Source: a virus. Taken from it: 33,172 bases of DNA. A model generated the notes under the pieces. The model had not been told where the DNA came from. It saw only the letters and a list, made by a program, of their open reading frames with translations, and made no database searches. The DNA lies in the IMG/VR virus record IMGVR_UViG_3300023235_000078, positions 1-33,172 of that record. One strand, written 5' to 3'. Made by a program: the position numbers and the translations under genes. Each line of letters starts with the position of its first letter. Position 1 is the stretch's first letter. Shown here piece by piece: positions 5,029 through 22,800 of this stretch.

Positions 5029-5619
5029 CTATCCTTTTTCCCCGTGTTCGAACCGCGCGCGACGAGCCTTGTCGAGTGCCTGCATCATGCGGTCTTTGTG
5101 TTTGATTACCGGCGCGTCGATGTCCGGGTTGATAATGATCCGCCAGCCCTTGAGCGAGATCGTCGGGCCGCGGCCCTTAAACTCCTGATCGCTGGGTATC
5201 ACAGCGACTTTCTGCGGATCGTCTGCAGCCCCCGTAAAAAGAACAAAAGGAGAACGAGGGTCCGACATCTCTGGGATCCCGCCGGCCATGAGCACACCGT
5301 GGGTTTCTTTGTTGGTCATGGCGGCCAGTGCGGTGGCCTTGAGGCGGTCTTCGTCACGCAGGATGCCGCCCTTTATCTCCATGAAGCACTTCCATTCCTT
5401 GACCCAGAAGTCGGGGAGGTAGTTCACCGGCTGGCCGTTGTAGGTCATGGCGTAGCCTTCGGCCTCGTAGGTCCACGTCAGACCAAGTGCGTCGAGGTAG
5501 ATGGCCCAGCGGGCTTCGAGCCGGGATCGGAACCAGTGCCCGGCATACTCTGTCTGTATTGCCCGGATAGTATTCTTGGCCGAGCCTTTGGCGCTCACCT
5601 TGCGTCGCGATATCGTCAT
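5029..5619 (-). CDS. PD-(D/E)XK nuclease-like protein (196 aa)
   Basis: The N-terminal half carries the signature of the PD-(D/E)XK nuclease fold: a conserved glutamate in SRLEARW (E35), PDF with D70, and EIKG with E81 and K83, spaced as expected for one active site. The rest is mixed alpha/beta, with a basic first 20 residues. The exact subfamily is not clear; it resembles phage resolvase or endonuclease genes that sit beside polymerases. Possible jobs are removing branched intermediates or degrading host DNA. Start ATG 5619 is preceded by GAGGA with six bases of spacing, 11 bases after the polymerase stop. Fold call is fairly safe; substrate is unknown. Confidence 0.72.
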   Translation of the reverse strand: MTISRRKVSAKGSAKNTIRAIQTEYAGHWFRSRLEARWAIYLDALGLTWTYEAEGYAMTYNGQPVNYLPDFWVKEWKCFMEIKGGILRDEDRLKATALAAMTNKETHGVLMAGGIPEMSDPRSPFVLFTGAADDPQKVAVIPSDQEFKGRGPTISLKGWRIIINPDIDAPVIKHKDRMMQALDKARRARFEHGEKG

Positions 5620-5630
5620 GGTTACGTCCT

Positions 5631-12616: not shown

Positions 12617-12890
12617 CTATCTCGGCCCGCGTATTGATGATGCGAGCATCGACACCTGCATCACGCAGTCGATCGAGCTGGTATTCTTGCAGCCGGGAGA
12701 TCCGTCCGGTGCCGCCGGGGTGCTTGAGCTCAACGAAGACAACCGCCCCGCCATACGCCATGAGCGTATCCGGGCAGCCCCGCTGACCCTCGAAAGCGAG
12801 CTTGCGCCAAAGGACGCCGGCGCCCTCGGCTTGCGCCTTCGCGTAGGCTTGTAGCCGGCCTTCATTCGTCGGAGGCTTTCTTGGAGGCAT
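12576..12890 (-). CDS. VRR-NUC domain nuclease (104 aa)
   Basis: Nearly the whole protein is a VRR-NUC domain, a compact PD-(D/E)XK nuclease found as a single domain in phages and as the catalytic part of FAN1. Visible are KLAFEGQRGCPDTLM (catalytic Asp in PDT), VVFVELKHPGG (Glu and Lys) and a QEYQLDRLRDAG helix. Phage members cut branched structures such as Holliday junctions. The start overlaps the HTH gene by 29 bases and the end overlaps the helicase by 41 bases, in three different frames, which points to tight co-translation. ATG 12890 is the only sensible start before the domain; the ribosome-binding site is poor. Confidence 0.9.
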   Translation of the reverse strand: MPPRKPPTNEGRLQAYAKAQAEGAGVLWRKLAFEGQRGCPDTLMAYGGAVVFVELKHPGGTGRISRLQEYQLDRLRDAGVDARIINTRAEIDAVIDELTGATTT

Positions 12891-13098
12891 CGAGGGGCAA
12901 CCTTTGTTGTCCCCGCAACTCTACCGCATATTTGAAGATCCGGTCTAGGCTGACGTCCGTCACCCGCGTTTCGGGCTTCCGCAGCCGCGAGACGAAGGTC
13001 GGATCATTGAACAACTCCCGGCCCAGCCGGCTCGGCGAAATACCAAAGTCGCGTTGCAGCGCCTTGATCTCTGCGAGAGCATTTTTCTTGAGCGACAT
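12862..13098 (-). CDS. Small helix-turn-helix DNA-binding protein (78 aa)
   Basis: The central region ISPSRLGRELFNDPTFVSRL (about residues 20-39) fits a Cro/CI-type helix-turn-helix, like small HTH proteins of alphaproteobacterial phages with the S-R-x-G-R pattern followed by D-P-x-F-V. The C-terminus is charged. It is the first gene of the - strand replication operon and is divergent from the + strand accessory genes, so it is placed to regulate both; a near-perfect 18-bp palindrome lies in the shared 82-base control region. The ATG follows nine A residues with no Shine-Dalgarno, so initiation may be inefficient or depend on the A-rich leader. Confidence 0.75.
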   Translation of the reverse strand: MSLKKNALAEIKALQRDFGISPSRLGRELFNDPTFVSRLRKPETRVTDVSLDRIFKYAVELRGQQRLPLDASKKASDE

Positions 13099-13108
13099 TT
13101 TTTTTTTG

Positions 13109-13148
13109 TTGACCGGGTGTTTGAAGTGAATGTAGGGTGCAACCTACA
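13109..13148 (+). promoter_or_regulatory. Divergent control region with operator-like palindrome
   Basis: TGTAGGGTGCAACCTACA (13131-13148) is palindromic except for one mismatched pair. A possible + strand -35 box TTGACC (13109-13114) lies 18 bases before TAGGGT (13133-13138), which would be a weak -10 under the palindrome. The + strand gene at 13181 has GAGG six bases before its ATG. I see no clear - strand promoter. The palindrome is firm; the promoter is a guess. Confidence 0.5.
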
Positions 13149-13180: not shown

Positions 13181-13666
13181 ATGGGCCCGGAAAAAGAAAA
13201 TCCCAAACAGGCATTCGGCAGCCACAAGACGCCGGCGAGCACGTTCCCCGCGACCGTGAAGGCCGAGGTGTCCGTGGCCATGTTGGAAGGCGCCATCAAG
13301 TATGGCAAGCACAACTTCCGGGCCAGCCCGATCCTCGCGAGCACGTACTACGACGCCGCGAACCGCCACCTCGACCAGTGGTTCGAGGGAGAGGACCGCG
13401 ACCAAGCTCCCGGCGCACTGGGCCTGCACCACGTCACCAAGGCGATCGCCTCTCTGGTGGTCCTGCGCGACGCCATGATCGCGGGCACCTTCGTGGACGA
13501 CCGGCCGCATCGTGCCGTCAGCGGCGAGTTCTTTGGCGAGCTGGATCTTGTGGTCAAGAATATGCTGGAGGGGGCCCACATCATGGCCGAGCCTTTCATT
13601 GAGGCCAACCGGCATTCGATGCCCGACGACACCGCAGAATTTCGCGTGTTCGTGGAGGCGAAATGA
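13181..13666 (+). CDS. dATP/dGTP diphosphohydrolase-like protein (DUF5664 family, 161 aa)
   Basis: Resembles the phage family named dATP/dGTP diphosphohydrolase N-terminal (DUF5664), an all-alpha MazG-like fold. Conserved segments are AMLEGAIKYGKHNFRA (about 34-49), a YYDAANRHLDQWFEGED stretch (56-72) with the acidic metal-binding residues, and LHHVTKAIASLVVLRDAM (81-98). Related phage enzymes hydrolyse purine dNTPs or dNDPs and shape the nucleotide pool; in diaminopurine phages a MazG-like enzyme makes dGMP for PurZ. No PurZ or DatZ is visible here, so a general nucleotide-pool role is the safer reading. First gene of the accessory unit; its stop overlaps the next start in ATGA. Confidence 0.75.
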   Translation: MGPEKENPKQAFGSHKTPASTFPATVKAEVSVAMLEGAIKYGKHNFRASPILASTYYDAANRHLDQWFEGEDRDQAPGALGLHHVTKAIASLVVLRDAMIAGTFVDDRPHRAVSGEFFGELDLVVKNMLEGAHIMAEPFIEANRHSMPDDTAEFRVFVEAK

Positions 13667-13821
13667 GCCACGTCGTCATCCAGACCGGCAAAGCCACATG
13701 GCTCGTCGCCCGGCATCTGATCGGAAAATCGTCCTCCTATCGGCAGCTATGTTCCTGCCGGTCCGAAGTCGCCGCTCACGAGATCCGCAAATCCCTCGAC
13801 GCAACCTCAGAGAAAGAATAG
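13663..13821 (+). CDS. Small protein of unknown function (52 aa)
   Basis: Starts in the ATGA overlap with the previous stop and ends with TAG. It begins MSHVVIQTGKATWLVAR, is basic, and has two cysteines in CSCR near residues 30-33. No family recognised. Support is the ATGA junction and the tight fit before the next gene. Confidence 0.6.
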   Translation: MSHVVIQTGKATWLVARHLIGKSSSYRQLCSCRSEVAAHEIRKSLDATSEKE

Positions 13822-13825
13822 CCCC

Positions 13826-13927
13826 ATGGACCATATCTTCCGCATAGCCGCAGACCACCCGATCGCCTCGCTCCTTTGTGTCGGCATCCTGTTCTGCATC
13901 GTCTTCCTCGGCCCGGTCGCAGGCTGA
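13826..13927 (+). CDS. Tiny single-span membrane protein (33 aa)
   Basis: ATG 13826 follows AGAGAAAG, and four bases separate it from the previous stop. Residues 13-32 form one hydrophobic helix (IASLLCVGILFCIVFLGPVA) after a short polar N-terminus. It fills exactly the space between two genes, three bases before the next ATG. It may be a small membrane effector, but its size limits confidence. Confidence 0.5.
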   Translation: MDHIFRIAADHPIASLLCVGILFCIVFLGPVAG

Positions 13928-13930
13928 ATA

Positions 13931-14248
13931 ATGGCCGGCCCCAGTTGGAAATACATCGACGCGCTCTTCGGAAACTTCCGGGACGCCTACACGGTGCTCC
14001 GGGGATCCACCACGGTGCTCGACGCGAACGACACTGCCTTGGTGCTCAACGAGAGCGACCATTTGCAGCTGTTCTTGCCGGAGAACCAAGCCCCGACGGA
14101 TCGGGCGCTGGCGATGGTCGAGATCTACAACGCCATGTGCCGGGACAAGGCCGGGACCGTCGACAAGACTGGCCGGCCACTGATGGGGAACGCCCCTTAT
14201 CAAGGGTTCACCCAGATACACACCCTGCGCATGAAGGCGCGAGCGTGA
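13931..14248 (+). CDS. Protein of unknown function (105 aa)
   Basis: A mostly helical soluble protein beginning MAGPSWKYIDALFGNFRDAY; no motif that I recognise and no membrane segment. The first half may be a small alpha/beta domain and the C-terminus is basic. Tight spacing on both sides (three bases upstream, GTGA overlap downstream) supports it as a real gene of the accessory unit. Confidence 0.65.
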   Translation: MAGPSWKYIDALFGNFRDAYTVLRGSTTVLDANDTALVLNESDHLQLFLPENQAPTDRALAMVEIYNAMCRDKAGTVDKTGRPLMGNAPYQGFTQIHTLRMKARA

Positions 14249-14439
14249 TTGAGCTCGTCCTGATCGTCTGCCTCATGGGGGAGCCGGAGTGCATACGCAG
14301 CTCCAAGGAGATGCCGCGCTGGGACGTTTGCACGGACCTCTTGCCTGCTGCCCGGCGAATATTGGCGGAGGATTTTCCCTTCCCGGTCTATTCCGCATCC
14401 GCAGAATGCCACTACACCCCGCCCGGGGAGGACAGCTGA
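14245..14439 (+). CDS. Small cysteine-containing protein with hydrophobic N-terminus (64 aa)
   Basis: GTG 14245 overlaps the previous stop (GTGA) and has AAGG seven bases upstream. The N-terminus (VIELVLIVCLMGEPECI) is hydrophobic, like the short secreted or membrane-attached proteins with repeated cysteines found in many Rhodobacterales genomes and phages; four cysteines are present (near residues 9, 15, 27 and 57). A periplasmic disulfide-bonded peptide is possible, but the hydrophobic part is short for a signal peptide. Confidence 0.6.
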   Translation: MIELVLIVCLMGEPECIRSSKEMPRWDVCTDLLPAARRILAEDFPFPVYSASAECHYTPPGEDS

Positions 14440-14459
14440 TGTCTGAGATATAAACCCGC

Positions 14460-14645
14460 ATGACCATCGTGCAGACCGACGACCCCCGCTACGCCGCAAC
14501 AGCAATACTGGCCGGCCCGGACGGGAGCTTCACCAATTTCGGGATCACTCCGGAGCTGGCGCAGAAGATCGTCCGGGACCTGCACTATCAGCTCACGAAA
14601 TACCAGATAAGGAACCCCGAGTATGCCTCGCGCAAAAACGATTAA
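14460..14645 (+). CDS. Small protein of unknown function (61 aa)
   Basis: Begins MTIVQTDDPRYAATAILAGP. The first half looks like a beta-hairpin (AILAGPDGSFTNFGIT), the second a basic helix. No known family. The Shine-Dalgarno is weak. The 3' end overlaps the next gene by 23 bases in another frame, which is typical of this packed region. Confidence 0.55.
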   Translation: MTIVQTDDPRYAATAILAGPDGSFTNFGITPELAQKIVRDLHYQLTKYQIRNPEYASRKND

Positions 14646-15036
14646 CGGCGAGCCCGCCAAGTGGTTCAACACTCCCTTCGAGGAGAGCCTGTTCAAAGAA
14701 GTCACCACCGCAGCCAAGGCGCGGGAGCAGCCTGTCTCCGAATACGTTCGGCACGCCGTGCGGTTGCGTCTCAATCTCGACGGACCGGGCAAGGAGCGTG
14801 ACGACGAGACCCCGCAGGGCATGTCGGCGCTGAACGCGATCGCGGACGCAGCCGATCCCGCACCAACACTGCCCGGGCAGGACACAGACGAAGCGTATTT
14901 CAGGGGTGTCCACGACGCCTGCGATCGCATCCGCAAGACAGCGAAACTCCGCGTGAAGATGGCCCACGGCGAGACCATGGGCGAACATCTGGCGCGGTCC
15001 ATCGAAGACATTCTGAAACACAACAAGGAAGTGTAA
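14623..15036 (+). CDS. Ribbon-helix-helix-like regulator (137 aa)
   Basis: AAGGAA (14609-14614) lies eight bases before ATG 14623. Residues about 14-52 fit a ribbon-helix-helix: a strand-like WFNTPFE, then two helices ending EYVRHAVRLRL. A linker and a C-terminal helical domain of about 55 residues follow, which could mediate oligomerisation. It could regulate phage or host genes; the promoter at 15048-15082 directly after it is one candidate target. Family assignment is by pattern only. Confidence 0.6.
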   Translation: MPRAKTINGEPAKWFNTPFEESLFKEVTTAAKAREQPVSEYVRHAVRLRLNLDGPGKERDDETPQGMSALNAIADAADPAPTLPGQDTDEAYFRGVHDACDRIRKTAKLRVKMAHGETMGEHLARSIEDILKHNKEV

Positions 15037-15047
15037 CAGATAAGCCC

Positions 15048-15082
15048 TTGACAGCATAAGAACGGATGTTCTATATACGTTC
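15048..15082 (+). promoter_or_regulatory. Sigma70 promoter overlapped by LexA-type half-sites
   Basis: A perfect -35 TTGACA (15048-15053) and a -10 TATATA (15072-15077), 18 bases apart. Three tetranucleotide half-sites overlap it: GAAC (15060-15063), GTTC (15068-15071) and GTTC (15079-15082). GTTC-N7-GTTC is the known alphaproteobacterial LexA box, and its seven-base spacer contains the -10. GAAC-N4-GTTC, the Gram-positive LexA form, overlaps it. This suggests that host LexA represses the downstream genes until DNA damage. The promoter is well supported; LexA control is inferred. Confidence 0.7.
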
Positions 15083-15122
15083 CGGACATCAACAACCAAC
15101 CCAGCAACAGGAGATACACCCC

Positions 15123-15584
15123 ATGGGCTACACGCATTACTGGACGATCAGCAAGCGGATCCCCGCAGTGAAATGGATACTGATCCAGACCGCCGTCGAA
15201 GAGATCATCAAAGCCTCGCCGGCCAAGGTTCAATACGAATTCGATCTTGACGCCGCGCCACAGATCAACGGCGAAGCGATCCGCTTCAACGGCCCCGGCG
15301 ACGAGGGCTGCGAGACGTTTATCCTGTCCCGTGGAAAGTCGGAGTTTGAGTTCTGCAAGACACGTCAGCGCCCATATGACGAGGTCGTTGTGGCCACGTT
15401 GATCGCCGCGAAGGTCTTCGCTCCTGAGTGTGTTTCGGCCAGTACAGACGGCACGCAGGAAGACTGGGCCCGCGGCGCCGAGCTCGCGCTCAGCGTCCTC
15501 CCCGATGGGCTACTCGGCCGGGTTCGCGTCTCTGACGCCGGCGCCATCACCCTTGTCGCGCCGAAGGTGAAGGTGACGGCATGA
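15123..15584 (+). CDS. MGYTHYW-family phage protein of unknown function (153 aa)
   Basis: ATG 15123 has AGGAGA (15109-15114) eight bases upstream; an earlier ATG at 15066 lies within the promoter itself and is rejected. The protein starts MGYTHYWTISKRI, the hallmark of a family common in phages and plasmids, with no known function. It continues as an alpha/beta domain containing an RFNGPGDEGCETF segment and an FEFCKTRQRPYD segment, as relatives do. It is the first gene behind the LexA-overlapped promoter, so its expression may respond to host DNA damage. The next gene starts in an ATGA overlap. Confidence 0.8.
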   Translation: MGYTHYWTISKRIPAVKWILIQTAVEEIIKASPAKVQYEFDLDAAPQINGEAIRFNGPGDEGCETFILSRGKSEFEFCKTRQRPYDEVVVATLIAAKVFAPECVSASTDGTQEDWARGAELALSVLPDGLLGRVRVSDAGAITLVAPKVKVTA

Positions 15585-15919
15585 GCAAGACAACACTCAC
15601 ATTGGGACCGTGGGGGAGTGTTGAGTGCGACGGTTCTGATGATGAGGGCTTTGAAATAACAAGCGACATCCGCGCCGGCAGGGTTCCGATTGCGGCCATA
15701 GCGACGGGGTTCGAGCCAGAGTTTGATGCGGAGCAGGAGGCCAACGCCCGCCTGATCGCAGCGGCCCCTGAGCTGCTTAGGGCGTTGAAGAAGATGCTGA
15801 AAGAGCACGACATCATAACAGACAATGACCCTAGTTTGCGACGCGGAGATGACCGCTGGCCTAACACCGCCGCAGCAGCACGAGCCGCCATAACCAAAGC
15901 AGAAGGAGAAAAGGCATGA
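15581..15919 (+). CDS. Phage protein of unknown function (112 aa)
   Basis: Starts in the ATGA overlap, with AAGGTGA upstream. An N-terminal beta-rich part is followed by ANARLIAAAPELLRALKKML (about residues 50-69) and a C-terminal ARAAITKAEG. This pattern occurs in short phage proteins of many genomes and has no assigned function. Probably cytoplasmic. Confidence 0.75.
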   Translation: MSKTTLTLGPWGSVECDGSDDEGFEITSDIRAGRVPIAAIATGFEPEFDAEQEANARLIAAAPELLRALKKMLKEHDIITDNDPSLRRGDDRWPNTAAAARAAITKAEGEKA

Positions 15920-16851
15920 AGGGCGCGATCATAGGCGACATCGTCGGCTCACGGTTCGAGTTCGATAGCAGCTTCAAGTCCAAGGACTTCGAGCTTTTTC
16001 ACAACGACTGCAAGTTCACCGACGACACGGCGATGACCTGTGCGGTGGCGGACTGGATCCTCTCCCCCGAGAACGTCTCCGAGCTGCCCGCCGCCATGTT
16101 GAACCGCTACGTCATGCACGGAAAAGACCGCTCCTACGGCGGCGGCTTCGAGCAATGGCTGAACACATGGGAGCGCGGGCCTTACTGCTCTTTCGGCAAC
16201 GGCGCGGCCATGCGGATCAGCCCTGCGCTGCTCGTCTCCTCGGTTGGTGTTCGGCCAATGCTTGAAGCGGTCGAGCAGATCACCGGGGTTTCTCACAACC
16301 ACCCCGAGGGTATGCGGGGCGCGATGACGACGGCCGGCGCAATTCTGACGGGGCACCTCGGCGGAAAGCCTAAGGATCTTCTCCGTTTCGGCCGGGCGTG
16401 CGGGTACGACATGAGCATGACGGTCGACGAGATCCGCGAGGATTACAGCTTCGACGAGAGCTGTCAGGGCACCGTGCCGCAGGCGTTGATCTGCGTGGCC
16501 GAGGCGGTGGATTTCGAAGATGCGATCCGGAACGCGGTGTCTCTTGGCGGGGACAGCGACACGCTCGCGGCCATCGCCGGGTCTATCGCCGAACGTTTCT
16601 TTGGGGAGCCGTGGGAGCTCTGGCTTGCTGCGCGGAAGTATTTGCCGGACAGCATTTGGAACGTCGAGAAGACGTTCAGCAAGCAGATAGAGACGATGAG
16701 CGCGATGCGGCGGCTGTTTAGCCCCAGCACCATTTCTTTTGACAGTGTTGCGCTGCGCGAAGCTACGTTGCAGGAGGCACGACTGGCGATTGAGAACGCG
16801 GTCCTCAAGTACCCCGCGCTTCCTCTTGGATCAACTTCCGCCGCCGCCTGA
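15916..16851 (+). CDS. ADP-ribosylglycohydrolase (DraG/ARH family, 311 aa)
   Basis: Removes ADP-ribose from protein or nucleic acid targets. Both metal-binding signatures of the family are intact: FTDDTAMT (T35, D36, D37) and GGDSDT (211-216), plus GDIVGSRFE at the N-terminus and GNGAAMRISP near residue 95. Length is usual for the family. ATG 15916 overlaps the previous stop (ATGA) and has AAGGAG seven bases upstream. It belongs to the same unit as the LexA-overlapped promoter. The 3' end overlaps the end of the convergent giant gene by 47 bases. Phage versions could reverse host ADP-ribosylating defences such as DarT-like toxins, or balance the phage's own transferase; both are inference. 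Confidence 0.93.
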   Translation: MKGAIIGDIVGSRFEFDSSFKSKDFELFHNDCKFTDDTAMTCAVADWILSPENVSELPAAMLNRYVMHGKDRSYGGGFEQWLNTWERGPYCSFGNGAAMRISPALLVSSVGVRPMLEAVEQITGVSHNHPEGMRGAMTTAGAILTGHLGGKPKDLLRFGRACGYDMSMTVDEIREDYSFDESCQGTVPQALICVAEAVDFEDAIRNAVSLGGDSDTLAAIAGSIAERFFGEPWELWLAARKYLPDSIWNVEKTFSKQIETMSAMRRLFSPSTISFDSVALREATLQEARLAIENAVLKYPALPLGSTSAAA

Positions 16852-19800: not shown

Positions 19801-22800
19801 GGAAGTCCCAGACGTTCTTCGCCTTGACGTAGAGTGGGATGACGCGCTGAAACTGGGGCTCGTCCCACCCATGGGCGGTCTTGGGCTCGTACGGCTCGGA
19901 CCGCCATCCGTTTGCGAACTCCGTGTCTTCCGTCACGAAGATCGCGCCGTGCGGATAGTTCGAGCTCTCGGGGCTGAAAGTGCCGTCGTCGAAATCCCGG
20001 TTGGTTGAGTGGTACAGGACCTTCGGCAGCCCGTCCGAGCTCACCACATCGGTGTCGCCCATGAGATCCCAGAACTCCGAGGAGTTCGGGTGACTGACGG
20101 AGAACCGCGCTCCGGGCGTCTGGCGATCGCGCTGAGAGCGATAGGCTGCGATGTCGTCTTCTGTCGCCGCCCGGCCATCAGCTTCCGCGCTCTTGGGGAA
20201 GAACGTCGTGATGCTGGCGTAATAGAGGCCGTCCTTGCGGACCTTTTCGAGACCCAGAATATACTCAATGTTGGTGGTCGGGTCCGTCCAAGACATGCGG
20301 TAGTCGAGCGCCCGGCTGTCGGGAACAAGTTTGCCCGGCGGGATGTATCGCTCGACGTTGTAGTTGCCCGGCGCGCCACGCGTGTGAGAGTTGGCCAGCA
20401 TCTTTCGAAGGATCGCGCCCATCTCCGGCAGACCACCGAAGCGCGCTGCCTTTGCGGAGATGTGCTCCTTGCCAAAGCCCGCGCCGTCGATGTCCACACC
20501 CTTCATGAGAATGACGGGAAGCATCTCTTCCTTGGTCAGCCACGCCATGCCGCGCACGTTGTCGGGGAGATCGCTTGACGCCTGCGCCTTCGGAGACATC
20601 GGCACGATGCGCGTGGCCTCGTTGAATTCGTAGGGTTCGAGCTCCCGGGCCCACTTGCGGATCGAGAACTTCGGCGCGTCCACGTCCTTCTGGAACGTCG
20701 GGTCGTCGAGCCGGATGTTGGTCACTTCGGCGGCGCCACGCTTCAACAGCGGGGACGCGAAGGCCTTCTCCTTGGCCTCCGTCAGGCTGTGCGCCATGAA
20801 CTGCCGGGTGATGGTCTTCTTTCCCGGCCGGCGGACGTCGACGGAGTACCGACGCAGCGGGCCTGCGTCGCGCTCAGCCTTCCGGTCCATCTCCTGCTGT
20901 GCTCGGCCAGTCATGCCGCGGGAGGACAGCTTTGCCGGCGTGACATTGGTCTTCTCGAACAGCGCGGCCACGGCGCCCTGCTTGGCGCGTGACCAGTAGC
21001 CCATGTATCCGGCGTCGCGGATCATCTTCTCGGCGAGGGTCGTGGCCTTGGCCTCGTCGACCATGTTGTTGGAGAGCGGGCTTTGCTTCCGGGCTTTCTC
21101 CAGAAATTTTTCGGGGTCAGAATTCCAGTCGTAAAGCCGATCGGCCGGAACGCTGGCGTGGTAGAGCGGCGAACTGTCTCCGAATTCAGAAACATAGCCG
21201 CCCTCGGTGCCTTCACCGATGCCGAAATAGGTCCGGGGCACCCACGCGTCGGGGTGCGCGTCTCGGCGGGCGGTCTCGTCTCCTGCGGCTGCGGCGCCGA
21301 AGAATTCCGGGTCAGTCTCAGTCAGCTGATCGGTGTTGCTGCGATGCGTGAGCTCGACCATGCCGTCTATATCTGCCGGCAAATAGAAGCCCAGATCGAG
21401 GTTTTCGGTGTATGCCCACTCAGGCATGAGCCCGATCTTCTGGTCGGCGAAGACGGTCTCATAAACACTGGCGGTACGGTTCTGCTCGCCGTAGGGGCCG
21501 TAGTTCAACCAAGAGTTCTGGCCGCGGGTCTCGCTGGCCACTGCGCCCACTGCTCGGCCAGTATAGAGCTTGATGTGCGCCTGAAACGCATTCTCTTCGC
21601 CCTGCGCCCGGAAGCCTGCGCCTTCGAGCCCATGGCCGAACACGTCGTGCACCGCGCGGAAGACGTCGTTGGCAAGCATGGGGGTCATGACGCCGTCGGC
21701 GTCGGGGATCAGATAGTCTGTTTCCCACATGAGCGGGTTTTCTTTTGGGGTGGGCAGGGTCTCGTCCATGCCGAACCCCGCTTTCGTCGGATAGATCGCC
21801 ATGCGCTTGTTGGCATGGAGATCGCGCATGGCGTTAACAGGGTTCCCTTCGTAGGGATCCGCGTCGGGGTCCATGAAGGAGAAGGTGTATCCGGCGTCGA
21901 TCAGCGCCTCATACTGCGAGGACGTCTGTCGGATCATATCGGAATAGGCGCCAAAGACCTCGGGGTCTTGGGGGTTGTGTTTCATCGCTTTGAATGCGTC
22001 GGCAACACGCGTCGCGAAGACCTCGTCGACCTCGACGTAGCGGCCTTGCGGCTTGTACTTTATTCCTTGCCGCTTCGCATAAGCTCGCGCCACTTCTCCG
22101 AGTTCGGGGAGCGGCCCTGTCGCTCCTTGAGGCTCTGGTATGCCCCGGAGCGTCTCGCCTGTTCGGCCTGCAGTGTCAGCCAGTTCTTCTCCGGCGGCGG
22201 GCCCTTCGGGATCGGTGCCTGCTTGGACGCTTTGCTGTCTTTGTTCATTGTTTGTTCCTTCCGTGTTCCCAACATAGGCGCCCGCGCGCGCTTCCGCAAC
22301 AGAATACCTTATGCCGGGATTGGTTGGGTCGACATCCTCAAGATCACGGACAGATAGTTTCGCCTCGACACCGCTGCCCGTCGCGTTTGCGCCGGTCGCA
22401 TCCCGGGCGGCCTGCCCGCTGTCGATGTTTTCGAATATTTCGTTTACGTCGGTGATGCCTTGGTTCCGGAAGAAATTGGCCAGACCCTTGATCAGGTTCA
22501 ATACTCGCCGGAAAATGTTTGCAGGCTTGCCGGTGAACAGCGACGGGTCTCCTGACCAGTCTCGGAACATCTCGGCCACGGCCTCTTCGTTCAGCGCGTC
22601 TTCGCTGAGGTTCTGGTCTGCGTAGGCGATGCGCGCGTCTTCCAGATAGGTGCGGCCCTCCGCCTTCGTGCTCGCTGCCTGCAGCCCCACCGGCCGGACC
22701 CGCGTCGAGGCTGCGCGCGCCAGTACGGCAAAATCCGTCTCGGAGATCGCACCGATTTCGCGCAGCGCGTGGATCTGTTCGTGCGACAACACGGCCAACA

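Follow-up and report, generated by a model that had tools for sequence, protein, structure and literature searches.

A sigma70 promoter overlapped by LexA-type half-sites, found in a viral genome, raises the question of whether the genes behind it could be controlled by the SOS response of the host. The window (the whole stretch of DNA that was analyzed, 33,172 bases) is an IMG/VR virus record with a G+C content of 62%, and its genes are arranged in three blocks:

Minus strand: replication block, encoding a primase, a resolvase-like protein, a DNA polymerase, exonucleases, and a helicase.
13181-16851, plus strand: small-gene block.
Minus strand: virion block.

The virus is a podophage; no lysogeny gene was recognized in the window, and its relatives look strictly lytic. 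A megablast search against 50,697 phage records detected no relatives at the DNA level. The virion proteins share 20 to 36% identity with those of phages infecting Caulobacter, Roseobacter, Pelagibacter, Ochrobactrum, Sinorhizobium, and Octadecabacter, with further matches to a set of phages labelled cyanobacterial. Across the structural and replication proteins, the named hosts of the matching phages are mainly alphaproteobacterial. Because these distant virion-protein homologues come from alphaproteobacterial phages, the host of the window phage is likely an alphaproteobacterium. The stretch fetched from one record with a cyanobacterial label (OL906435, Planktothrix phage Pag-Yong1) is 69% G+C; the records MinM2 and Pra-JY27, entered under other cyanobacterial hosts, have the same length of 65,014 bases, and the host label of OL906435 looks doubtful.

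The promoter occupies an 86-nucleotide gap between an upstream stop codon ending at 15036, 11 nucleotides ahead of the -35 element, and an ATG at 15123. Its elements are as follows:

15048..15053, plus strand: -35 hexamer TTGACA, read directly and matching the consensus at 6/6 positions.
15072..15077, plus strand: -10 hexamer TATATA, after an 18-nucleotide spacer (15054-15071).
15067..15083, plus strand: alphaproteobacterial-type LexA box TGTTCTATATACGTTCC, with an exact GTTC-N7-GTTC core at 15068-15082 and the -10 hexamer within its spacer.
15060-15063, 15068-15071, and 15079-15082: half-sites GAAC, GTTC, and GTTC, respectively.
15059..15072: palindrome AGAAC-GGAT-GTTCT, with perfect 5-bp arms, between the -35 and -10 hexamers.

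On direct reading, the promoter and half-site positions given in the preliminary description proved exact to the base, as did its statement that GTTC-N7-GTTC falls on the promoter and holds the -10 hexamer. Two sigma70 matches in the window score 10/12 under a wider definition of the -10 element (a stricter scan missed TATATA, which lacks the final T), and only the one at 15048 is intergenic. The core motif by itself is not rare: one GTTC-N7-GTTC had been expected by chance, which is sound as an expectation (shuffle mean, 1.40), but the window holds four copies, a number reached or exceeded in 5/100 shuffles.

Downstream of the promoter lie three genes on the plus strand:

15110..15113, plus strand: ribosome-binding site GGAG, read directly, 9 nucleotides ahead of the ATG at 15123.
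15123..15584, plus strand: MGYTHYW protein of 153 amino acids, a widespread phage family without a Pfam or PHROG match.
15581..15919, plus strand: 112-amino-acid protein (phrog_1273), ead/Ea22-like according to its sole phage match.
15916..16851, plus strand: ADP-ribosylglycohydrolase of 311 amino acids (PF03747, phrog_6572, ARH3/DraG structures).

The PF03747 match is strong (E = 8.3e-30; 104.9 bits against a cutoff of 26.2), and the metal-binding motifs of the family, TDDT and GGDSDT, are intact. Because 4-nucleotide ATGA overlaps at 15581 and 15916 link the genes, the three almost surely form one translationally coupled unit, in keeping with their earlier description as a single target of the promoter. 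From the promoter elements, the box match described below, and this operon layout, we infer LexA binding and SOS induction at the window promoter, and we consider it somewhat probable that the site is the sigma70 promoter of a three-gene operon repressed by host LexA.

To compare the site with genuine LexA boxes, we built a matrix from the regions preceding recA and lexA in alphaproteobacterial genomes drawn as a sample; of the 35 GTTC-N7-GTTC boxes gathered there, 32 were used. Beyond the core, these boxes favor T at position -1 (31/35), T at +4 (25/35), and A at +5 (23/35), and TGTTCTATATACGTTCC carries all three bases (T-GTTC-TA). The window box scores 21.5 bits, within the range of leave-one-out scores of the recA/lexA boxes (8.8 to 28.6). 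With the cutoff set at 19 bits, the recA/lexA loci (223 kb) yielded 36 forward and 2 reversed-matrix matches, whereas 648 kb of other viral loci yielded 2 forward and 2 reversed matches, and 190 kb from four reference phages yielded no forward match. Three comparators, Caulobacter phage RW, Ochrobactrum phage OH, and Roseobacter phage CRP-901, carry distant homologues of the window's virion proteins and, in RW, of its replication proteins as well; unlike the window, their scanned stretches hold no LexA box of at least 19 bits, and neither an MGYTHYW protein nor an ADP-ribosylglycohydrolase is annotated in the stretches seen.

Known alphaproteobacterial SOS promoters carry the LexA box GTTC-N7-GTTC, as in Caulobacter (PMC12700426, PMC9578287). 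They share with the window site the core, the T-GTTC-TA extension, an AT-rich spacer, and the overlap with a sigma70 promoter; host lexA promoters likewise have the box over the promoter. Two differences weigh against control by host LexA: the orientation of the window box is the reverse of nearly all recA/lexA boxes, and its register is unlike that of the usual lexA promoter. The window box also differs in lying in phage DNA, in holding the -10 hexamer within the spacer, whereas in the SOS promoters it ends on a half-site, and in having C as the final spacer base, where T, A, or G is commoner.

The GAAC half-site fared less well than the GTTC pair among the LexA-type half-sites first described. 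None of the recA/lexA upstream regions searched in the sampled alphaproteobacteria contained GAAC-N4-GTTC. Its single occurrence in the window, GAACGGATGTTC, is unsurprising because 0.62 are expected and 45/100 shuffles contain one. This half-site could suggest a Gram-positive-type LexA (DinR) box and hence an actinobacterial or firmicute host, since GAACGGATGTTC fits the GAAC-N4-GTTC core reported in PMC9578287 and the same triple half-site occurs, with a DinR-like palindrome, in a low-GC viral contig. We regard this as very improbable. The palindrome scores 15.5 bits, below 18/19 GAAC-N4-GTTC sites flanking actinobacterial lexA loci; its AGAAC...GTTCT arms are without the flanking C and G of CGAAC-N4-GTTCG (37/38 symmetrized positions); and no actinobacterial or firmicute phage appears among the structural-protein matches listed. 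The site reads instead as an alphaproteobacterial box with one extra half-site. The low-GC contig itself (L253, 145 kb) has a promoter at ~5593-5626 on the minus strand that bears two DinR-type boxes, CGAACAAACGTTCG and CGAACAAGTGTTCT, the second in the triple half-site layout of the window, and is better read as containing a Gram-positive DinR promoter.

The palindrome also bears on a phage-coded regulator. AGAAC-GGAT-GTTCT has perfect arms and occupies the classic operator position between the -35 and -10 hexamers, so that it might be the operator of a repressor encoded by the phage itself, for example one of two proteins:

14623..15036, plus strand: 137-amino-acid protein directly upstream, ribbon-helix-helix-like by eye in its N-terminal part.
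12862-13098, minus strand: 78-amino-acid, helix-turn-helix-like protein, modeled as four helices (pLDDT 72).
13131-13148: a separate perfect palindrome, TGTAGG-GTGCAA-CCTACA, in the gap that separates the 78-amino-acid gene (minus strand) from a divergently oriented dGTP-hydrolase-like gene (plus strand).

The 137-amino-acid protein, whose gene ends 11 nucleotides ahead of the -35 hexamer, is a possible alternative regulator. We nevertheless judge a phage-coded repressor improbable at this site. A DNA-binding match was supported for neither protein: database searches with the 137-amino-acid protein gave no match and its model is unreliable (pLDDT 47), and a fold search with the 78-amino-acid protein returned nothing significant. 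The promoter palindrome does not recur in the window at fewer than two mismatches, and the 78-amino-acid gene adjoins its own, different palindrome, which is likely a phage operator.

A further possibility, though on the whole an unlikely one, is that the promoter is an ordinary constitutive or early phage sigma70 promoter on which LexA-like half-sites are overlaid by chance. The agreement of the noncore bases with LexA boxes argues against chance, as do the low background rates: none of 200 first-order resampled windows held a site as good as TGTTCTATATACGTTCC, and the backgrounds predict about 0.1 such LexA sites per window. In favor of chance are the ready expectation of GAAC-N4-GTTC alone and two LexA-grade boxes inside genes of the window, where control is unlikely:

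5240-5256, minus strand: LexA-grade box CGTTCTCCTTTTGTTCT (score, 21.7 bits) within the resolvase-like gene and ~215 nucleotides upstream of the primase start.
22242-22269, plus strand: three tandem GTTC half-sites in 11-bp steps, scoring 19.4 and 14.1 bits, within the gene for a 2877-amino-acid virion protein.

Because the best scores at these two places (21.7 and 19.4) resemble that of the promoter box, the local chance rate is higher than the backgrounds imply. First-order resampling and codon-shuffle nulls predict nearly zero strong boxes, yet two stand in genes, and we therefore also quote the rate from the window's own genes. With the viral background rate, the probability of a noncoding site in the window is ~0.003; with the window's own rate, it is ~0.06, or ~0.003 for the promoter itself, given a noncoding length of ~975 nucleotides estimated from an incomplete gene list. 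The true value is between the estimates of 0.003 and 0.06. These values are to be discounted for some multiple testing, as the preliminary description was free to scan for any known motif.

Recurrence of the arrangement elsewhere also bears on chance. A search of viral contigs with TTGAC-N13..15-TGTTCTA-N5-GTTC and with a reversed control recovered 98 forward and 58 control stretches. Outside open reading frames of at least 70 amino acids lay 15/69 distinct forward sites versus 1/46 reversed-motif sites (Fisher P = 0.002; P = 0.007 when a repeated microvirus family is entered as a single case). Many of these noncoding composites have a T-rich spacer, as in real LexA boxes, and not all of them need be alphaproteobacterial. 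This recurrence in noncoding viral DNA argues against a chance overlay and suggests that the composite of -35, LexA box, and -10 is also present in other viral contigs, where it can be sought. In two of the contigs (L196 and L234), a GC-rich hairpin, similar in both, and small genes come after the LexA-box promoters, with downstream sequence common to both; perhaps this shared region is a conserved leader or small RNA under SOS control. A scan of the viral contigs that included the GAAC half-site (TTGACA-N7..9-GAAC-N4-GTTCTATA) gave six stretches, among which the promoter architecture did not recur.

The host side gave a different picture, one that speaks against control by host LexA: across 385 alphaproteobacterial genomes, the exact composite occurred twice forward and twice in the reversed control, with no enrichment. 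Both forward chromosomal composites look promoter-like. On one alphaproteobacterial chromosome, TTGACG-N17-TATATA lies within GTTCTATATATGTTC, one base from the window box, before a gene start; this case, like the placement of the box over host lexA promoters, favors control by host LexA. This GTTCTATATATGTTC site is at ~1500 on the reverse strand of locus L363, and the product of the following gene is PAAR-like by eye.

Conservation of the site was seen in no relative, a point in favor of a chance overlay; searches with several of the genes recovered no close relative of the phage. Relatives of the MGYTHYW protein share only 28 to 40% identity and are without the half-sites. No such box was detected upstream at 72 other loci with MGYTHYW genes or in three roseobacter/rhodobacter phages, both against control by host LexA. 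The ADP-ribosylglycohydrolase led to two distant viral loci and the DNA polymerase likewise to two; for the upstream 137-amino-acid protein and the dGTP-hydrolase gene, none were found. A search of the 385 alphaproteobacterial genomes, run without a positive control, returned no MGYTHYW relative, a negative of little weight. Occurrences of GAAC-N4-GTTC in freshwater MGYTHYW phages were considered as conserved SOS boxes and rejected, since their reading frames, inspected by eye, point to coding sequence (for example, ...GEQMFE).

If host LexA does repress the operon, a LexA dimer on GTTC-N7-GTTC would cover the -10 hexamer and the start-site region in an undamaged cell and exclude RNA polymerase. 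DNA damage, or damage caused by the phage, would activate RecA, leading to LexA self-cleavage and firing of the promoter. All three products, the MGYTHYW and ead/Ea22-like proteins and the ADP-ribosylglycohydrolase, would then be encoded by one mRNA. As a guess, the last of these could remove an ADP-ribose mark imposed by the host during damage. The full scenario is doubtful: that in a virulent (nonlysogenic) alphaproteobacterial podophage, host LexA silences the ADP-ribosylglycohydrolase operon until DNA damage, tying the demodification of ADP-ribosylated targets to the SOS state, perhaps against a damage-linked host defense.

Control of phage genes by host LexA is known chiefly as a lysogeny switch. 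Promoter P1 of GIL01, a Bacillus thuringiensis phage, is under host LexA (PMC4551915), and other such phage promoters are reviewed in PMC9437464. Like P1, the window promoter would be a phage promoter with host LexA sites at which SOS relieves repression. GIL01, however, is temperate, and its Gram-positive box, placed just past the start, serves to control the lytic switch; the target in the window is an accessory operon, in a genome without a recognized lysogeny gene. The same review describes alphaproteobacterial phage promoters controlled by CtrA (PMC9437464). These resemble the arrangement proposed for the window in that promoters of alphaproteobacterial phages respond to a regulator of the host; they differ in the regulator and in responding to a cell-cycle signal instead of DNA damage. 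Within the set of papers searched, joining ADP-ribosylglycohydrolase, phage, and LexA returned one paper, which was unrelated. Because host-LexA control of phage genes is already known, the window operon would probably be a further example. If true, the phage would sense the damage state of its host during infection through the LexA-box promoter of accessory genes, and the locus would provide the first regulatory context for the MGYTHYW family and for a phage ADP-ribosylglycohydrolase.
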